Part shown: positions 1,402 to 8,210 of the stretch, piece after piece
Layout: each line of letters begins with the position of its first letter
Position numbering within the stretch: the stretch's first letter is position 1
Origin: Nitrospirae bacterium CG2_30_53_67
Lineage (GTDB): Bacteria; CG2-30-53-67
Assembly: GCA_001873285.1 (NCBI GenBank)
Contig: MNYV01000155.1
Location: 1 to 8,210, forward strand
Reading direction: 5' to 3'
DNA: 8,210 bases
Program-made: the position numbers and the translations under genes
The notes under the pieces: model-generated
Database searches by the model: none
Told to the model about the DNA's origin: nothing
Seen by the model: only the letters and a program-made list of their open reading frames with translations

Positions 1402-4158
1402 CTACTCAATCCCCACGGAGTCACTCAATCCAAGATCATCCAGAATCTGCCTGAGTTCCGATTCAATGTGTCCGGCAATATCCGAGTTCAGGGTGACCGA
1501 AAAGTTGACCCCTACCTGAAGATCATCCCCGGCTTTCAACTTGGGAAGAATCTTCGTGCCCAGACGGTTCCACAATTCCGGCGGGATTGTTCCGACCAGC
1601 CTCAGAGTCCGTTTTCCAGGTTCCGGGGTAGGCCCAGGTTCAGGACCGGGTTCTGGTCCAGGCTCTGGTCCCGGACCAGGTTCTGTAGGCTCCTCAGGTT
1701 TGGGTACTGCTTTCACTCCAGCCTTGAGTAATTCGGTTTTATCTTTTCTGAGCAAGAAGACACCGGATTCGAAGGCCACTTCTTCAGGAAGAATCAATTC
1801 TTTAAACCAGAGCCGCTCATAAGTACCATCCGCCTTCTGCCCCGAACCCAGACCGAAATCTCCGTTACTCACAAATTCAACGATCTTTCCCCGTAGAACG
1901 GTATCAGGATCTATTAATCTGGTTAACGATCCGTTCAGGAAGCTCTGCCGCAAACTGGTGAGCGGCCATGCGCCTGAAGCCTTCAGTGCCGGCGGCCAGT
2001 TACGGTCGATGTATCCCGCACCCACGGATTCATTCAGGAGGGCCTCCGATCTCATGGCCGTAATCACTCTGCCGCAAAGAGTCTCACTCATGCTCGCATG
2101 TCCGGCACCGATATCCACCACTCTCAGCCCATCCGGCTCCTGATTGTCGGAAAGAACCAGGTATCTATATCCGCCCCAAACCTCATCCTTGGCATCCTCT
2201 TCGGAAACTTCTATCCTGGCTTGTATATCCGCCCGATCCGTGCGGTCAAAGTCAGAGCCCAAAGTACCGTCCTTGATCTCATTAGCCACTCTCTTCCAGG
2301 CAAGCCAGATCTCGACATTCTCTCTCAGGTCACGCCCAGGTCTCTTCAGACACCAAACAAGAGATCCCGGATACAATCTCGGAGACTTCCCTCTCTGCTT
2401 TGTCCACTCTGCAACCTGATTGCGAAGCGGTCCGCTTCCCGTCCATTCATCCTTCGGATCCATCAAGACAAGAGTGAGCCTTGGAGTGTCCTGTATGGAA
2501 GAACTATCCTTTGGATATTTTACGATCGGGATGCCGGCTCCGCGTTCAAATTCTTTCACAACCAGATTATCCATTGCCGGTTTTATTTCAGAATCTTCAT
2601 CGAGGGAGGCTCTTCGGTCGCTGACGACCTTCTTCAAAGTGGGTTGATGCCTGATCTGGAACCCGTCCGACCCAATCTTCCGGATGAAAAAGGCCTTGGA
2701 TTCCAGAGCAAACGCCGCATTATCGACTGATGTCGTATCCACTCTCGGTTCTCCAAGTGCGAACCGAAGCTCGGGCAAATGGGCTACCTTGTCCACCTGA
2801 CCGCCGGAGGACTCAAAAAGTATGGTCGAGGCCACACGGCGATGAATGTCCCTAAGAGGTCCTTTGGTATCTGCATCCAAGGCCCCCGCATGGGAATGTT
2901 GGCCAGAGATGTCGGCCTCAATAGCGGCCACAAGCCTGGACTCGCCCAGTTGGCCGAGGATGACTCCCCGAAATTCCGGCGCCCCGAGTGGAGCAGAACC
3001 CAATGTAATCAACGGCTCATTTCGTGCCCGCTGATACGCGTCCCGATAGGCCCAGGATATCCACTGGGCAAGCATTGCCAGGGTTCCACGCGTTTGCTGA
3101 TACTGTTGAAGCGCTTGCCATTTCCGTTGAAAAACCGAAAGGGTCGCAGGATGAAAGGGGTAACAGGCTTCAAACCGGCTCCTCAGAAATTCTTTTGCCT
3201 TGGACTCCGTGGATGCCGTATCCACCGCAGTCCAATGGGATGGAAGCTCAGCCCGTCGTTCGAAGCACCAATCAGCATATGCCTTGGCAACATTTTTTCG
3301 GATCCTCTCGCTCCCCAAATCCTCAAACAGACGCCTCCGGACCACTTCGCTGATCTCGGTCTCGTCATTTGCGATCAAGTCCTTGGCCACGCGGCGGACG
3401 ACTTTTTGGATCCTGTCCTGCCATTCCATATCCCAGTCCGTCATCTCCACCTGGCTGCGTGGAAGACTGATGACTGCAGCACCCCGCGTCGTGCCGGTCA
3501 TGGCCACGGTTAGATTCTGGAGAAAGGCGTGAAAAGAGTCCGCCATTTCCCGATGCCGGTTCATAAAATTCAGTACTTCATCAAAGAGGATGAGCACGGT
3601 CCCGCCCGCTGCGTCAAACACCCTTCCGATTGTCTCGGTTCCAGGCGGCGTCGTTTTTGCAGCCTTGCCAAGTTCGGCTACGCCCTTGTCCCCGGCAAGC
3701 TGCCGTGCAACATCAATCCATGGAGTCTCACGCCCGTCCTGATGGTCCCATGCATTACCCACAAACACGGCCACCTTTGCTTCCGGAACAGCAGAGAGCC
3801 CGGCTCCCTGAAGAAGCTCTGAAACACCCGGATAGGCGCCGGCCTTCTTACCATTTTTAGCAAGGTGGTAGAGTGCCGTGAGGGTATGAGTCTTGCCGCC
3901 CCCGAACTGCGTGATCAGGGTCAAGACCGGCGCCGTGTCAGCAGTTTCACCGCTCAGACGGCGGAGGACCATTCCCGCGTGTTCTTTCAGAGCCCTGGTA
4001 AAGCACGTTCGTGAAAAGAATTGCTCGGGATTTCGGTAATCCTCCGGCGCCGTTTTTGCAACAACTTGTTCAAGGGCAATGGCAAACTCATCCGGATTAA
4101 ATGAACGGCCCTCTCGAACTTCTTTTCGTGGTGTTGCCACCTTGTACCAGGGTTCCAT
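1402..4158 (-). CDS. DUF499 (COG1483) AAA+ ATPase, core gene of methylase-ATPase defence system
   Basis: 918 residues from the ATG at 4158, which has AAGGAG 5 nt upstream. A GTG at 4171-4173 would add five residues but lies inside a repeat, and the two DUF499 remnants in this window also start MEPWYKV. The N-terminus [20 protein letters not shown] is characteristic of DUF499. Walker A is [10 protein letters not shown] at 82-91, Walker B VLILFDEV at 188-195 (D193, E194), and a sensor-like stretch AAVISLPRS follows at ~227-235. Near the C-terminus, just after residue 800, is a Pro-Gly-Glu linker, then a ~75-residue tail domain ([16 protein letters not shown] onward). DUF499 ATPases occur beside DUF1156 methylases in anti-phage loci and, as I recall, are related to the BrxC/PglY ATPases of BREX. 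The role as an NTP-driven core component is inferred. The frame is open throughout, and it is the last gene of the locus. Confidence 0.92.
1617..1698 (-). repeat. Pro-Gly-Glu repeat-coding linker in the DUF499 gene
   Basis: The DNA here is a run of imperfect 12-bp units encoding [19 protein letters not shown] and flanking residues. It links the ATPase body to the small C-terminal domain and is expected to be an extended, flexible spacer. Such tandem units change length easily by replication slippage. Confidence 0.75.
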
Positions 4159-4513
4159 AAAAACTCCTTTCACCGCGGAGGCGCAGAGACCGCGGAGAAT
4201 TCTTTAGCCCGACTGTCCACCCGCCAAGCTTCAGGTAGGTCAACAATTGGGCTTCGTGGATGGGTTGAAGGGCGTCCACCACCTTCAGTTCGAGTACCAC
4301 CGCTTCTTCTACAAGGAAGTCCAATCGGTATCCACACTCCAGTTTCACACCCTTGTATGTCACGGGCAAGGGAACTTGTCTATCGAATTTCAGACCTCGT
4401 AGCTGCATTTCATGGGCGAGGCATTCCTCATAGGCAGATTCCAACAAACCAGGCCCAATAGTCTTATGGACCTCAATAGCTGCCCCGATTATCTTTTCAG
4501 TGATTTCCTTCAT
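4097..4513 (-). CDS. GxxExxY family protein (PD-(D/E)XK-like), C-terminus replaced by repeat-encoded tail
   Basis: 138 residues; native sequence ends near residue 103. The name motif is at G22, E25, Y28 ([14 protein letters not shown]). A PD-(D/E)XK-like core is visible as D65 in [10 protein letters not shown] and E75-L-K77 in VVLELKVVD, followed by QLLTYLKL at 89-96. Family members normally continue after 'VGL' with a LINFN...LKDGIKR-type end. Here that end is missing, and residues ~104-138 are encoded by repeat copy 1 (4171-4197) and by the start of the DUF499 gene in another frame, so the reading frame overlaps the ATPase gene by 62 bp. The protein may be inactive. The biochemical role of the family is not firmly established; a nuclease-like fold is family knowledge. 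The start ATG follows a repeat copy and has only a weak AGAG-like ribosome site. Confidence 0.85.
4164..4169 (-). promoter_or_regulatory. Shine-Dalgarno site deciding the DUF499 start
   Basis: AAGGAG on the minus strand, 5 nt before the ATG at 4158. The repeat copy at 4171-4197 ends one base beyond it, so the insertion left the ribosome site of the ATPase intact. The equivalent sites of the two remnant starts are also still readable: AGGAGAGGA before 6008 and GAGGGGA before 4822. Confidence 0.8.
4171..4197 (+). repeat. 27-bp repeat, copy 1 (plus orientation)
   Basis: One of seven copies in the window of a 27-bp repeat with consensus start CACCGCRGAGGCGCAGAG, then GACGCAGAG. This copy varies in its last third (ACCGCGGAG). 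It lies between the GxxExxY gene's native end and the DUF499 ribosome site. Its CACCGC tip points to the ATPase, away from the GxxExxY gene. Confidence 0.9.
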
Positions 4514-4522
4514 ATCGCTTTT

Positions 4523-4549
4523 CTCTGCGTCCTCTGCGCCTCAGCGGTG
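4523..4549 (-). repeat. 27-bp repeat, copy 2 (minus orientation)
   Basis: The minus strand reads CACCGCTGAGGCGCAGAG followed by GACGCAGAG, one mismatch from the consensus. It ends 9 nt before the GxxExxY ATG, so it forms most of that gene's leader. It is inverted relative to copy 1 across the gene, with 325 bp between them. Confidence 0.9.
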
Positions 4550-4598
4550 AATCCTTCTTAATTCATTGCTTTGACATCCATTACTATCTTCGTCTTTC

Positions 4599-4625
4599 CT
4601 CTGCGTTCTCCGCGCCTCTGCGGTG
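4599..4625 (-). repeat. 27-bp repeat, copy 3 (minus orientation)
   Basis: The minus strand reads CACCGCAGAGGCGCGGAG followed by AACGCAGAG. It is a direct repeat of copy 2, 49 bp away. Both share the flank GGATT before CACCGC. It begins 5 bp after the stop codon of the DUF1156 remnant at 4631. The AT-rich spacer between copies 2 and 3 holds no gene. Confidence 0.9.
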
Positions 4626-4630
4626 AATCC

Positions 4631-4783
4631 TTATCGCGGTACCGCGAGCAGCATGGCGTCCAAGAGCCTTTTTTCCTCTGATCCCTTTGGGTAAAGAGCC
4701 GAGAGGGCATTTGCAAGCCTTAAGAAATCTGGGCCACGATCCTGCTCGGCCTTGATGAGCGCCCGAAAGCCGTGGGCCTGCCC
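4631..4783 (-). pseudogene. Remnant: last 50 codons of a DUF1156 methylase gene
   Basis: Reads GQAHGFRALIKAEQDRGPDF then LRLANALSALYPKGSEEKRL, ending LLDAMLLAVPR and TAA, in one uninterrupted frame. It matches the end of the methylase at 7226-8210 with five amino-acid differences in 50, while many codons differ silently. It has no start and joins directly to a DUF499 start remnant on its upstream side (4790-4822). It is the right border of cargo module 3, and the cassette repeat begins 5 bp after its stop. Confidence 0.88.
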
Positions 4784-4789
4784 TTCCTT

Positions 4790-4822
4790 TCACAAACTAA
4801 CCACCTTATACCAAGGTTCCAT
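4790..4822 (-). pseudogene. Remnant: first codons of a DUF499 ATPase gene
   Basis: An ATG at 4822 opens MEPWYKVVSL and stops at TGA 4790-4792. The first seven residues equal the intact ATPase and the eighth matches the other remnant (V). A GAGGGGA ribosome site precedes it and overlaps the end of the nuclease gene, whose TAG lies 2 nt upstream of the ATG. Homology is lost after about eight codons, and the DUF1156 end begins 6 bp later. A ten-residue peptide could be translated, but I see no reason to give it a role. Confidence 0.8.
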
Positions 4823-4824
4823 GA

Positions 4825-5799
4825 CTATTCCCCTCCCAATGGTCTTCTCAAATGCTCAAAAAGCTTCAATGCAGAACTTTTCAGGCGATACAAATTTGCA
4901 TACGCTTCAGGGGCAAAATCATTTTCTGCCTTGTACATTCTGTATCTTATTCCATCAGTCACGACGATGTCCCTGGTGACTCCCAACTCGACGAGATACC
5001 TCTTGGCCTGCTCAAGGGCACCTTCCACTCCGGCTCCAAGTCTCTTTGCCTCGATAACCAGATGACAATTTTCAGGATTCCGAGGTAAAGAACGAAAAAC
5101 GCATACATCAACTCGTTTCCATTTAATAGCAATCTGCTCCACCTGCCATCCGAGAGCGCGAAGTAACGGAACGACAAAATGCGCTATGAGTTCATCTTCA
5201 GTCGGATGTTCGCCGAAGGCTTGCTGGTTCCAATAGAAACTGAATAGGTCATGGGCCTGTGCAACCAAGCCTTGTAACGGTATCGGGACTTCATCCAACG
5301 GTGGTTCTTCTTCTGGTAACTTTGGCAATGGTGCAGTTTGCCAATGAACGGGCGGCGACTGAATGAACCGATAGGCGTAATCCAAAACCGTTGCATTGCC
5401 AACCTTTGAAATCCGCGGGGGATTTGCCCCAAAAACTAACTCATCAAATTTATATTCATCAGGTAATCGAGACCAGTGTACCCTCCTTGCGTGCTGCAAG
5501 TCCCATCCGTTAACATCATCGAACTGAGGAAGATACTGGTACCCACCATCCACAACCCCAACGGCCTGAATTGATGCTTGACTTACCCTCAGAAGGAATA
5601 TATCTCTCGGGATGACCTCGGACGCAAATCGTCGAACGTAACTTCCTTCAAATTCATCATCGCTCAGTTCGGGCCGCCATTCTCCTGCGTCACCGGGCCC
5701 AATTAAGGCAACGCCGTATTTTAGAAAAACGTCCGCATAGGACCGGGTAATTGGACCACCAGAGACCTGCCATACATTTCTTGTTATTGCTACCGCCAC
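4825..5799 (-). CDS. PD-(D/E)XK nuclease, HsdR N-terminal type, with possible EVE/PUA-like N-terminal domain
   Basis: 324 residues from a GTG at 5799, with GAGGTGA a few nt upstream overlapping the remnant methylase's stop. A longer frame opens from an ATG at 5913, but its first 38 codons are the DUF1156 remnant read out of frame, so I reject that start. Residues ~1-112 form a distinct unit with GVALIGPGDAGEW, RDIFLLR, IQAVGVV and a DVNGWDLQHARRVHW block; its shape recalls EVE/PUA-like DNA-reading domains, which is a tentative call. Residues ~175-315 are nuclease-like: E203 in HPTEDELIAHF, D231 in KRVDVCVF, E250-A-K252 in LVIEAKR, and Q264 in ALEQAKRY, the pattern of type I restriction R subunits. 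No helicase motor is attached. It could cleave DNA with foreign modification; that is inferred. It is the sole gene of cargo module 2. Confidence 0.82.
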   Translation of the reverse strand: MAVAITRNVWQVSGGPITRSYADVFLKYGVALIGPGDAGEWRPELSDDEFEGSYVRRFASEVIPRDIFLLRVSQASIQAVGVVDGGYQYLPQFDDVNGWDLQHARRVHWSRLPDEYKFDELVFGANPPRISKVGNATVLDYAYRFIQSPPVHWQTAPLPKLPEEEPPLDEVPIPLQGLVAQAHDLFSFYWNQQAFGEHPTEDELIAHFVVPLLRALGWQVEQIAIKWKRVDVCVFRSLPRNPENCHLVIEAKRLGAGVEGALEQAKRYLVELGVTRDIVVTDGIRYRMYKAENDFAPEAYANLYRLKSSALKLFEHLRRPLGGE

Positions 5800-5803
5800 C
5801 CCG

Positions 5804-5909
5804 TCACCTCGGTACCGCCAGAAACATGGCATCGAGCAGGCGCTTCTCTTCGTTGTTTTTTTGGGTAAAGAGCCGACAGGGCATTGGCCAAGTGTAGGAA
5901 ATCCAGGCG
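5804..5909 (-). pseudogene. Remnant: frameshifted last ~34 codons of a DUF1156 methylase gene
   Basis: Reads DFLHLANALSALYPK; then an A-run of seven (5856-5862 on the plus strand as T) shifts the frame. The intact gene has six at the same place (7278-7283). Removing one base restores NNEEKRLLDAMFLAVPR and the TGA at 5804-5806. After that correction only three of 32 residues differ from the intact methylase end. The stop lies 4 nt before the nuclease's GTG, and its AGGTGA serves as that gene's ribosome site. Confidence 0.85.
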
Positions 5910-5915
5910 GCAATG

Positions 5916-6008
5916 CTGCTTCAGGTGGATGGCGAACTCATCCGGATTAAACGACCGGCCCTCACGGACTTCCTTGCGCGGCGTGACTACTTTATACCAG
6001 GGTTCCAT
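5916..6008 (-). pseudogene. Remnant: first 31 codons of a DUF499 ATPase gene
   Basis: Begins [20 protein letters not shown] and runs to FAIHLKQ before switching to DUF1156-derived sequence. Over the first 27 codons 14 differ from the intact DUF499 gene, yet only one changes the residue (A8 to V). The ribosome site AGGAGAGGA before the ATG at 6008 is intact and overlaps the TAG of the DUF1828 gene. Read through, the fused frame would give a 72-residue chimera; I regard it as a recombination scar. Confidence 0.9.
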
Positions 6009-6017
6009 TATCCTCTC

Positions 6018-6785
6018 CTATCCCGCTAAGGCCTGCACATATTTTTCTCTGTGTGACCACACGGCTGGCTTTACCTCGTATGCTTCGAGCGCCTCGATTA
6101 CATCCCCTCCGACCTCCCTGTCCTGATCATTCAGGAAAGCATAGGCTTCTGATTCTTCACCGCGTGCCTCACGAGTGTCGGTGAGGCCAAACAGGTAGGT
6201 TCCGATAGTGTTCTTATTTGGCGCGTTAATCGCCTGAACAAGTCTTTCCGGCCTGCTCCGGGATTTCGGTATTAAGAAGTCTATGGCATGGTCAAAACCG
6301 CTTCTACCTGCAATTTTTACTCGGGGGCTATACCGCACATCGTGTTTGTCGAGAAACGCCCTCACATCCTCCCAGAAGAAGGTAGCGACCCGTGGCTGCG
6401 CCATGATAAACATATCATTCACTGCAAGCATCGCCTGTATGAACACGTGAAGGCGCTGCCCGATATTTCGCTGGGATGCTTCGACAAGAAGCCGGTTGCC
6501 ATCAAGTTTGACTCCAAAACCCTTGAGAACAGAATCCAGCACCGCCTTTCGCTTGGGCGTAGTCAGTTCAAGCCCGCTTGTTCGAAGGTCCGAAAGAGTA
6601 TAACCATCATCGGAAAGAATGATCTTCCCATTTTCCTTGATTGCATATATCTGCAGATGATCATTATGCCTGTCAAGAAAAGGAGTAGTAAGTTCGCAGG
6701 CGTTTTCCAGGCTTTCTACCGACAGCCCCTTGCGAAGCCACTCCACATAAGCATCTATGAGCTGCTTACATTCCTGTTTGTTCAT
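6018..6785 (-). CDS. DUF1828/DUF1829 domain protein
   Basis: 255 residues. The N-terminal half has the DUF1828 pattern, with LTTPFLDRHNDHLQIY (32-47) and IILSDDGYTLSDL (55-67). The C-terminal half has the DUF1829 pattern, with SPRVKIAGRSGFDHAIDFLI (153-172) and NAPNKNTIGTYLF (187-199). No membrane segment or signal peptide is seen. Its function is unknown to me. Such proteins are often found in defence islands and mobile regions, and this one sits inside a defence operon. The ATG at 6785 overlaps the stop of the DUF6978-like gene (ATGA), so the two are translationally coupled and probably act together. Its TAG lies within the ribosome site of the DUF499 start remnant, showing the same tight fit to the ATPase border as the other modules. 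Confidence 0.82.
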   Translation of the reverse strand: MNKQECKQLIDAYVEWLRKGLSVESLENACELTTPFLDRHNDHLQIYAIKENGKIILSDDGYTLSDLRTSGLELTTPKRKAVLDSVLKGFGVKLDGNRLLVEASQRNIGQRLHVFIQAMLAVNDMFIMAQPRVATFFWEDVRAFLDKHDVRYSPRVKIAGRSGFDHAIDFLIPKSRSRPERLVQAINAPNKNTIGTYLFGLTDTREARGEESEAYAFLNDQDREVGGDVIEALEAYEVKPAVWSHREKYVQALAG

Positions 6786-7216
6786 AAGAATCCGTCCTGA
6801 AAAGGAGGCGCCATGATATTGCAGTACCTACAGAAATCATCAAAGCTGTCCTGTATGCTGCTTGGATTCCTGAACTCATTGTTGTTGATCGGATACGCCC
6901 ACTTATCCTCGAAGCCTTCCAAGTATACATGAAGATGTGCCCCGTCAAGCCGTGTACCGTCTGGGTTCGTATGCGGTGCCCCATTAATATCGAGACGGAC
7001 AAGGACGATGACCTTTCTGCCCCTGTTTTGAAACTTGAGCTTTGACAAGCGTATAGTTCGACGCCACAAGTCGAGCAGAAATCGCTCTCGCGTGTCTTCG
7101 CTGACAAGCTCGTGTGTATGATCACTGCCCGGCGGCAGGGAAATCGTTACTGATTCTACAAAGTTCTTCCTCATTGCGATGAGGCCGTCTGCTTCAATTT
7201 GTGTCAATATGTCCAT
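6782..7216 (-). CDS. DUF6978-like small protein, partner of DUF1828 protein
   Basis: 144 residues. Key visible stretches are LTQIEADGLIAMRK (4-17), RTIRLSKLKFQNRGRK (53-68), VLVRLDINGAPHTNPDG (71-87) and HLHVYLEGFEDKWAYPI (94-110). The PHTNPDG and HLHVY histidines could be catalytic or metal-binding, but that is a guess. I assign it to the DUF6978 family from memory of the HTNPDG...DKWAYP pattern. It is the first gene of cargo module 1, 9 nt after the methylase stop, with no good Shine-Dalgarno, so it probably depends on translation of the methylase. It overlaps the DUF1828 gene by 4 bp. Confidence 0.72.
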   Translation of the reverse strand: MDILTQIEADGLIAMRKNFVESVTISLPPGSDHTHELVSEDTRERFLLDLWRRTIRLSKLKFQNRGRKVIVLVRLDINGAPHTNPDGTRLDGAHLHVYLEGFEDKWAYPINNNEFRNPSSIQDSFDDFCRYCNIMAPPFQDGFL

Positions 7217-7225
7217 AAGTTTCGT

Positions 7226-8210
7226 CTATCTTGGCACGGCTAAAAGCATCGCGTCAAGAAGTCTTTTCTCTTCGCTGTTTTTTGGGTAAAGCGCCGACAG
7301 GGCATTTGCAAGCCTCAAGAAATCAGGACCGCGATCCTGCTCAGCCTTTATGAGCATCCGCAAAGCATTCGCCTGCCCGCCGGCCTGAAGCAGCATTGCT
7401 GCATGTACCCGGTCGAGTGTGGTCGCCTCTTTCTCACCGCCGAGACGCGGAGAGCGCAGAGATTCTTCATTAAATAACCTTTTTGTCTTTCCTCTGCGTC
7501 CTTTGCGCCTCTGCGGTGGATTGTCTTCCAATTCAGGAAAGAGCAACTGCTGGTAATCCCTGCGAGGATCATGCTCAATCAAGTCGGCAACAGCATCGGC
7601 CCCATCATCACCAAAGAGCTGCCTGGCTCGCTCACTAACGGACAAGAGGCGAACCACCCCTTTTTGTGTCTCAATGATCCGTCCTTCCCAATCCGGAAGA
7701 TGAATCCCCAAGGGCTGAGCAAAACGCCGGGCGACATCGAAGACCAGGGAAAAACCTTTGCACCGCGGAGGCGCAGAGGACGCAGAGTCTTCATCATTTT
7801 CAACTTCTTCTTCCTCTGCGTTCTCGGCGTCTCTGCGGTGAGATTCTTCCCCATTCGTACTCTGAAGCGTCCAGAGAAATAGCGCCGTCAACCGCGCATC
7901 CTCTTCCAACGCCCCGGCTGCGCCGTTCCGAGCGCGGGCCCCTGCCTGCGCCGCGTCCCGCGACGCGGCAGGCAGGTCGTCCGTGCCAAGGATATTTTGG
8001 AGGGCGATGCGACCGACGGTCTCCCAGACATAGGCGAGATAGCCGCGTTTATGTGGTTCCTTGGCTTCAGGGTCACCGCCCAAGGGAATTGGCTTTCCTT
8101 CGGCATCTTCGACCTTGGAGTAACGGCTGTAAATCTCCAGAGCTGGCCCTATGCATGCGAAGACCAAGTCTGCACCTCGGACTCCCTCGTTTTGGAGCCT
8201 TTCCATCCAG
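7226..8210 (-). CDS. DUF1156 (COG1743) DNA methylase, C-terminal part; 5' end outside the window
   Basis: The frame is open to the right edge. The first ATG at 8206 is internal, because the preceding codon (Trp) and the following ERL...GADLVFACIGPALEIYSRYS belong to the conserved protein. Recognisable C-terminal blocks are GYLAYVWETVGRIALQNILG, GALEEDARLTALFLWTLQST, SLVFDVARRFAQPLGIHLPD and the end FLRLANALSALYPK...LLDAMLLAVPR. The DUF1156 domain and the methylase motifs lie further N-terminal and cannot be checked here. The family is an adenine-type DNA methylase paired with DUF499 ATPases in phage-defence loci. Three hydrophilic linkers are enlarged by in-frame palindromic repeats (7435-7518, 7761-7840, 7941-7976). 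It is the first core gene seen in the locus. Confidence 0.88.
   Translation of the reverse strand, partial: WMERLQNEGVRGADLVFACIGPALEIYSRYSKVEDAEGKPIPLGGDPEAKEPHKRGYLAYVWETVGRIALQNILGTDDLPAASRDAAQAGARARNGAAGALEEDARLTALFLWTLQSTNGEESHRRDAENAEEEEVENDEDSASSAPPRCKGFSLVFDVARRFAQPLGIHLPDWEGRIIETQKGVVRLLSVSERARQLFGDDGADAVADLIEHDPRRDYQQLLFPELEDNPPQRRKGRRGKTKRLFNEESLRSPRLGGEKEATTLDRVHAAMLLQAGGQANALRMLIKAEQDRGPDFLRLANALSALYPKNSEEKRLLDAMLLAVPR
7435..7461 (+). repeat. 27-bp repeat, copy 4 (plus orientation)
   Basis: CACCGCCGAGACGCGGAG followed by AGCGCAGAG. Paired with copy 5 (30-bp gap) as an inverted pair with CACCGC tips outermost. Inside the methylase gene it encodes, in the gene's sense, SLRSPRLGGE within a poorly conserved linker. 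Confidence 0.88.
7492..7518 (-). repeat. 27-bp repeat, copy 5 (minus orientation)
   Basis: The minus strand reads CACCGCAGAGGCGCAAAG followed by GACGCAGAG. It encodes QRRKGRRGK in the methylase frame. With copy 4 it can form a long hairpin in DNA or mRNA. The following GAAAGAC flank is shared with copy 3. Confidence 0.9.
7761..7787 (+). repeat. 27-bp repeat, copy 6 (plus orientation)
   Basis: CACCGCGGAGGCGCAGAG followed by GACGCAGAG: one of the best matches to the consensus. It encodes SASSAPPRC in the methylase frame and pairs with copy 7 across a 26-bp gap. Confidence 0.92.
7814..7840 (-). repeat. 27-bp repeat, copy 7 (minus orientation)
   Basis: The minus strand reads CACCGCAGAGACGCCGAG followed by AACGCAGAG. 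In the methylase frame it gives HRRDAENAE, the reading in which this repeat is often met in predicted proteins. It forms the inverted partner of copy 6. Confidence 0.92.
7941..7976. repeat. 36-bp hairpin, unrelated to the 27-bp repeat, inside the methylase gene
   Basis: CCTGCCTG (7941-7948) pairs with CAGGCAGG (7969-7976), and CCGCGTC (7951-7957) with GACGCGG (7962-7968). This makes a 15-bp stem with a 2-nt bulge and a 4-nt loop. In the gene's sense it encodes DLPAASRDAAQAG between NILGT and the ARNGAAGALEED block. It looks like a small palindromic insertion element kept in frame. Confidence 0.7.

Follow-up and report, generated by a model that had tools for sequence, protein, structure and literature searches.

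The 8,210-nucleotide (nt) window analysed here is one whole contig (GenBank MNYV01000155.1) of a metagenome-assembled genome (MAG), that of Nitrospirae bacterium CG2_30_53_67, and covers one end of an Hma defence operon, the end with the methylase (HmaB) and the ATPase (HmaC); the third core protein of such operons is the helicase HmaA. Its minus strand carries, in order, the 3' end of HmaB, cargo 1, scar 1, cargo 2, scar 2, cargo 3 and an intact HmaC gene, the scars being short pieces of ATPase start and methylase end (Table 1). Because the window is the whole contig, the 5' part of the methylase gene is absent, and the piece itself, of which only the C-terminus is inside the window, matched the PADLOC HmaB model at 5e-4. 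It is 75% identical to residues 773-1072 of the methylase at another Hma locus (L004), which matched HmaB at 6.8e-121 and DUF1156 at 5.7e-23, and judged by this identity it is an HmaB. PADLOC also matched HmaA, at 8.5e-172, for homologous neighbour loci. All three cargoes lie between the Hma methylase and ATPase and are thus embedded in the operon.

An earlier note on this DNA had placed methylase stops at 7226-7228, 5804-5806 and 4631-4633 and ATPase starts at 6008, 4822 and 4158, and all of these coordinates were correct. It had called the methylase pieces DUF1156 ends; DUF1156, however, lies at the N-terminus of the methylase (residues 14-71 of the L004 homologue) and falls outside the window, and the pieces are C-terminal ends. 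The note's description of each cargo as bordered by both core-gene ends is exact for module 1 (9 nt from methylase stop to cargo 1 and 9 nt from cargo 1 stop to ATPase start) and for module 2 (4 nt from methylase stop to the GTG of cargo 2 at 5799, and 2 nt from cargo 2 stop to ATPase start), but it is looser for module 3, where 117 nt precede cargo 3.

Searching with the resident termini (tblastn) recovered an extra copy of ATPase residues 1-31 at 5916-6008 (90% identical) and extra methylase ends at 5807-5860 and at 4634-4783 (last 50 residues, 90%). A 20-residue profile of the ATPase start scored 77 bits at 6008 and less than 8 throughout the control, 1.1 Mb of sequence from outside the slots. 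For the eight residues that start at 4822, the score on a 10-residue profile was 27 bits, as compared to a control maximum of 16, and the methylase-end profile scored 75 bits at scar 2 and 45 at scar 1, with the best control at about 17. Scar 1 carries one frameshift, within a run of A. When ranked across loci, its ATPase piece was 80% identical to the resident ATPase and 87% identical to those of L012 and L152, and the resident ATPase ranked only 25th. Since 24 other loci are closer, scar 1 is no recent local copy, and local duplication of the resident ends was rejected for it. Over 22 nt, scar 1 (5904-5925) also matches the methylase gene (7384-7405) in inverted orientation, which may be due to chance. 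The match resembles a template switch, but we did not rely on this, as the stretch in the scar has a second reading as ATPase codons 27-31.

Table 1. Features of the window and core-gene pieces found in the slots of other Hma loci (L numbers)
Locus	Feature	Coordinates (strand)	Details
Window	HmaB-type DNA methylase	7226..8209 (-)	C-terminal 327 codons; 5' part beyond contig end
Window	Cargo 1a, DUF6978 (PADLOC PDC-M24A)	6782..7216 (-)	Pfam 2.4e-43; PADLOC 1.1e-48
Window	Cargo 1b, DUF1828/DUF1829 (PADLOC PDC-M24B)	6018..6785 (-)	Pfam 6.9e-28; PADLOC 4.2e-99
Window	Scar 1	5804..6008 (-)	ATPase codons 1-31 (6008-5916) joined in the same frame to methylase end (~5915-5804)
Window	Cargo 2, predicted EVE/YTH-like reader + HsdR-type PD-(D/E)XK nuclease	4825..5799 (-)	324 amino acids; GTG start
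Window	Scar 2	4631..4822 (-)	ATPase codons 1-8 (4822-4799), a stop, last 50 methylase codons (4783-4634), methylase stop
Window	Cargo 3, GxxExxY / PDDEXK_3	4207..4513 (-)	C-terminally truncated; open reading frame formally to 4097; Pfam 4.9e-38; NCBIfam 1.6e-39
Window	HmaC-type DUF499 AAA+ ATPase	1402..4158 (-)	Complete; 918 amino acids; PADLOC HmaC 1.7e-90, over residues 1-685; Pfam DUF499 1.1e-12
Window	CTCTGCG...GCGGTG repeats around cargo 3	4160..4628 (.)	4171-4197, 4523-4549, 4599-4625
Window	Four more CTCTGCG...GCGGTG copies	7432..7843 (.)	In frame within methylase gene
L018	Scar		ATPase 1-61 fused in frame to methylase end, between MNT-HEPN pair and ATPase-DUF4276 pair
L018	Scar 2		Decayed; ahead of a cargo 2 nuclease remnant
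L045	Scar		ATPase 1-28 fused in frame to methylase end
L045	Next joint		DUF4276-type cargo cut after 17 codons, fused in frame to ~66 methylase codons
L173	Scar		ATPase 1-29 fused in frame to methylase codons
L175	Partial ATPase piece
L004	Helicase-end piece, helicase-methylase slot	5631-5762
L020	Helicase-end piece, helicase-methylase slot	4082-4219
L041	Helicase-end piece, helicase-methylase slot	2917-3060
L197	Methylase-start piece, helicase-methylase slot	3815-4045	Fused in frame to helicase end

Each of the three modules is carried singly elsewhere. The cargo 1 gene pair is the sole occupant of the methylase-ATPase slot in L008 (DUF6978 67% and DUF1828 79% identical), and the cargo 2 nuclease is the single cargo of L003, L012, L030, L043 and L049 (about 59-65% identity for L003, L012, L030 and others). 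The GxxExxY family of cargo 3 was found in the slots of L004, L042, L167 and L193, in the last three as sole cargo. The window is therefore a stack of modules that other genomes carry one at a time. An antiphage function may be supposed for the window cargoes, for cargo 1 by homology to the PDC models.

Cargo 2 belongs to a family present in 12 further slot loci, 13 Hma slots in all. Eight homologues align without large gaps, with D231, E250 and K252 invariant, and six of the eight family members gave weak HSDR_N matches; no NCBIfam model fitted cargo 2, and its homologue in L003 had no PADLOC match. In an AlphaFold2 model (predicted local distance difference test 80, predicted template modelling score 0.74), residues 4-157 matched an EVE/YTH-like fold (2p5d, Z 11.8), and residues 171-324 an HsdR-type PD-(D/E)XK fold (3h1t, Z 10.7; DrdV, Z 10.1). 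Based on this model, cargo 2 is predicted to be a modification-dependent (type IV) nuclease with a reader and a nuclease domain, and as such it could complement a methylation-based system in the way of BrxU and TgvAB (PMC11411939). No relatives of cargo 2 were found in viral contigs; among plasmids, two Cupriavidus records contained one distant relative at full length (31%), and Photobacterium gave a partial match.

Cargo 3 scored 134.8 bits against TIGR04256 (cut-off 35). Judged against L193, it lacks its last ~20 residues, lost at a CTCTGCG-type repeat, and its reading frame therefore continues into the ATPase start. The repeat is 27 nt long and occurs in 11 copies genome-wide, seven of them in the window contig; it was also seen on contig C59 (L213) of the same genome (G000). 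It looks like a small mobile repeat.

The earlier note had proposed that the methylase-ATPase junction is a cargo slot that can be filled repeatedly, and that junctions should be collected and searched for extra core-gene ends. Scanning with the ATPase sequence yielded 51 loci, to which searches in sampled genomes around four phyla added 52 regions; once duplicates were removed, 82 loci had a methylase stop with an ATPase start after it. The distance between the two ranged from 8 nt (L026-L028) to 6.3 kb and was shorter than 250 nt in 16 of the 82 loci and at least 250 nt in 66. That the junction is a recurrent slot, filled more than once, was borne out in unrelated phyla. The cargo is interchangeable: slot families included an AAA_21/OLD-like ATPase with a DUF4276 partner, MNT with HEPN or HepT, DUF433 with DUF5615, TIR, AbiJ-like and 23S_rRNA_IVP, in addition to GxxExxY and the cargo 2 nuclease, and several surveyed cargoes matched PADLOC HEC and PDC models (the L045 cargo matched HEC-01A at 1.3e-106).

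Clear scars were present in the window, L018, L045 and L173, with a further piece in L175. All were on the sense strand, with the ATPase start before the methylase end, whereas reversed-slot controls gave no scars, just single-query matches at E 0.001 or weaker. The claim that such fragments mark separate additions therefore held up beyond the window, with scars of the same kind and order in independent lineages (in L175 in part). The reading frame was kept at six of seven joints, which has a probability of about 0.007 if frames are independent. ATPase codon 28 and methylase codon -24 are centres of an in-frame similarity, and it is close to this point that L045, L173 and perhaps L018 scar 2 pass from one gene to the other; a preferred joint was rejected, since equally good similarities exist elsewhere and other scars switch at other points.

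The methylase-ATPase junction is not the only slot, as the helicase-methylase junction behaves alike and was filled in 37 of 48 cases. It also holds core-gene pieces (Table 1), and the helicase-end scar of L004 is common to L042, from another assembly that is assigned to another phylum, at 96.5% identity over 2.6 kb. When all four kinds of core end were searched against all slots, each kind was found at its own junction: pieces of ATPase start and methylase end between methylase and ATPase, and pieces of helicase end and methylase start between helicase and methylase. End pieces in the wrong slot amounted to single marginal matches (E 0.001-0.005), as in the reversed controls. Weak end-piece matches in the helicase-methylase slots of L008 and L026 were left out of the counts. 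Another contig of the window genome, C126, ends with a helicase 74% identical to the HmaA of L171; contig ends break its linkage to the window, and it is probably the missing upstream part of the window operon. Behind the helicase, this contig (G000:C126, L205) carries a short AlbA-like remnant and then, at its end, an AlbA-like cargo; the helicase-methylase slot of the window genome is therefore probably filled too.

Several other observations concern the surveyed loci. In the genome of L018, a segment outside a complete operon (L166) has a PIN toxin-antitoxin pair between about 121 codons of the methylase and 134 of the ATPase; it is possibly a decayed operon or a captured cassette. At L053, an ATPase start of which about 29 codons are left (95-181) lies at a contig edge, away from any ATPase gene, and is the remnant of a lost Hma slot. 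The ATPases of L152 and L153 are 94% identical and the 3' kilobase of their methylase genes 82-91%, with about 50% nucleotide identity upstream, a pattern that looks like exchange of the target-recognition region. The contigs of L005, L009, L010, L015, L032 and L046 break within a few hundred nt of the ATPase start, on its upstream side, perhaps owing to repeats or to slot cargo present in several copies. No ATPase relatives were found in phages and viral contigs, and those in plasmids were distant.

We consider it likely that the intergenic junctions of Hma operons are cargo slots filled from other Hma operons by recombination through the shared core genes. The source of the cargo would be operons whose corresponding slot holds another one. 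Homology on one side would come from the shared core genes, and the other end would be joined illegitimately or via a few matching bases, a one-sided route on which our judgement is evenly divided. A joint just within the ATPase start and the methylase end would leave a cargo, a short ATPase-start/methylase-end scar and the next cargo, with one complete methylase and one complete ATPase staying outside the stack, and two such events would yield the three modules of the window. The confinement of end pieces to matching slots is what recombination between operons at matching junctions predicts. The trio L171, L173 and L174 is also informative: their helicases are 91-92% and their ATPases 89-90% identical, and their cargo is different. 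L174 has the MNT-HEPN pair between methylase and ATPase, and L173 has the cargo 2 nuclease, a scar and then the MNT-HEPN pair. The L173 scar and MNT-HEPN pair are 77% identical to the methylase end and MNT-HEPN pair of L174. This alignment, together with the dissimilarity of window scar 1 to its own ATPase, argues for import of a segment over local duplication. Since the scars keep start and stop signals and are usually in frame, they could let translation pass from cargo to cargo, a role that we regard as possible but lean somewhat against. It is also conceivable, if short of probable, that Hma-type operons are general capture devices, in which every junction is a slot, the conserved core ends serve as interchangeable homology arms and the scars record successive acquisitions, their frame being kept so that a new cargo is expressed immediately.

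Some of the results weigh against recombination between operons as the source of the stacks. The stacks of L195, L019 and L172 have no scars. We found no near-identical pair of genomes before and after one event, so that a joint was never caught fresh, and the scar pieces are too short to tell a donor half from a resident half. The in-frame excess was spotted after the fact, rests on few events and is no more than suggestive. The identity of codons for the same amino acid was 0.47 near the ATPase start, 0.34-0.55 elsewhere in that gene and 0.40 at the methylase end; it does not clearly rise near the slot and thus gives no indication that crossovers in the core ends have been frequent in recent times. 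Homogenisation of these ends at the DNA level was likewise rejected, as synonymous divergence showed no clear drop near the slot.

The same final order could also result from tandem duplication or integration of a whole Hma operon and later deletion of the surplus ATPase and methylase to scars, the version closest to the earlier note, which had proposed deletion of surplus core genes. Scars do differ in decay, L018 scar 2 being degraded, as ongoing deletion would give, but none of the 82 junctions held a full tandem or a long remnant, and the slot remnants are all shorter than ~85 codons, out of ~920 (ATPase) and ~1070 (methylase). Without long remnants, insertion of a whole operon followed by deletion is possible but unnecessary, as one recombination with one-sided homology yields the same scar directly, and the resident genes have no close copy in window scar 1. 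We regard this version as unlikely. The short flanks and fixed order could also be explained in one step if a self-closed circle of methylase end, cargo and ATPase start integrated by one crossover in a core gene, its junction becoming the scar. The orphan segment L166 has the composition of such a circle, but it touches a contig end and may be a decayed second operon; no circular form was seen and the flanks have no recombination-site signature, which makes this route rather improbable.

A different reading is that the scars are kept because short fusions of ATPase N-terminus and methylase C-terminus function as regulators, adaptors or translation bridges. The open fusions in L018, L045 and L173, the frame kept at most joints and the high conservation of the termini (91% mean identity for ATPase residues 1-30) are consistent with it. 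However, terminal conservation belongs to the full-length proteins, window scar 1 is frameshifted, window scar 2 has an early stop, L018 scar 2 is wrecked and scar-free stacks exist, so that a selected peptide appears quite improbable. It is very improbable that a dedicated mobile element or site-specific recombinase places the cargo. The inverted CTCTGCG...GCGGTG repeats around cargo 3 may give that cargo its own mobility, but cargoes 1 and 2 are free of terminal repeats and target duplications and come with no recombinase, and the two junctions behave alike despite different end sequences and variable joints. An assembly or binning artefact that joined fragments of several Hma operons might be suspected, as the window is a short MAG contig with repeats that ends within the methylase gene. 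The same architecture in other genomes, the position of the L173 scar in a 1.28-Mb contig and the scar common to the L004 and L042 assemblies make this scarcely credible.

As far as we know, there is no account of how defence genes enter Hma operons. The paired scars in two slots are direct physical evidence for repeated addition through core genes, and addition by this route would explain the exact placement of cargo at the junctions. Fragments of core-gene ends may also serve as markers for new defence genes without homology to known ones; one candidate of this kind is cargo 2, which occurs in 13 of the surveyed slots and has no model in PADLOC or NCBIfam.

That Hma loci carry embedded candidate defence genes, as the earlier note had stated, is already published: Hma-embedded candidate defences (HEC) were reported by Payne et al. 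(2024, bioRxiv 10.1101/2024.01.29.577857), as cited in PMC11411939, PMC12111858 and PMC12255303. The window resembles these in having defence genes between Hma core genes, cargo 1 matching PDC-M24A/B and the L045 cargo HEC-01A; it differs, as far as those citing accounts go, in stacking several cargoes in one junction with paired core-gene fragments between them. Type-1 BREX-related (BR) systems, which combine a core of DUF499 ATPase, N6-methylase and helicase with auxiliary nucleases inside the locus (PMC12839542), share the Hma core; the sections consulted describe co-occurrence of effectors, and neither scars nor a route of gain were seen in them. DarTG2 or TgvAB within type I restriction-modification operons is likewise a case of one defence system nested in the operon of another, at what is probably a hotspot of recombination, but the host operon is another one, the cargo is single and no scars are described in the parts consulted (PMC12255303, PMC11411939). 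Cargo 2 itself can be compared with the restriction endonuclease VcaM4I (PDB 6yex), the N-terminal domain of which matches the reader domain (Z 10.8), whereas the C-terminal half of cargo 2 matches the HsdR-type domain instead. The proposed joining at one end by homology and at the other illegitimately, which adds foreign DNA beside the anchor, is like homology-facilitated illegitimate recombination, known from transformation and conjugation (PMC3240628); that is a laboratory process, whereas for Hma it would be read from genomic end products. The literature consulted on Hma, BR and embedded systems, in the parts covered, held no mention of stacked cargoes separated by core-gene ends. Thus, embedded genes in Hma operons were already known, and their stacking with paired end-scars is, as far as can be told, new.

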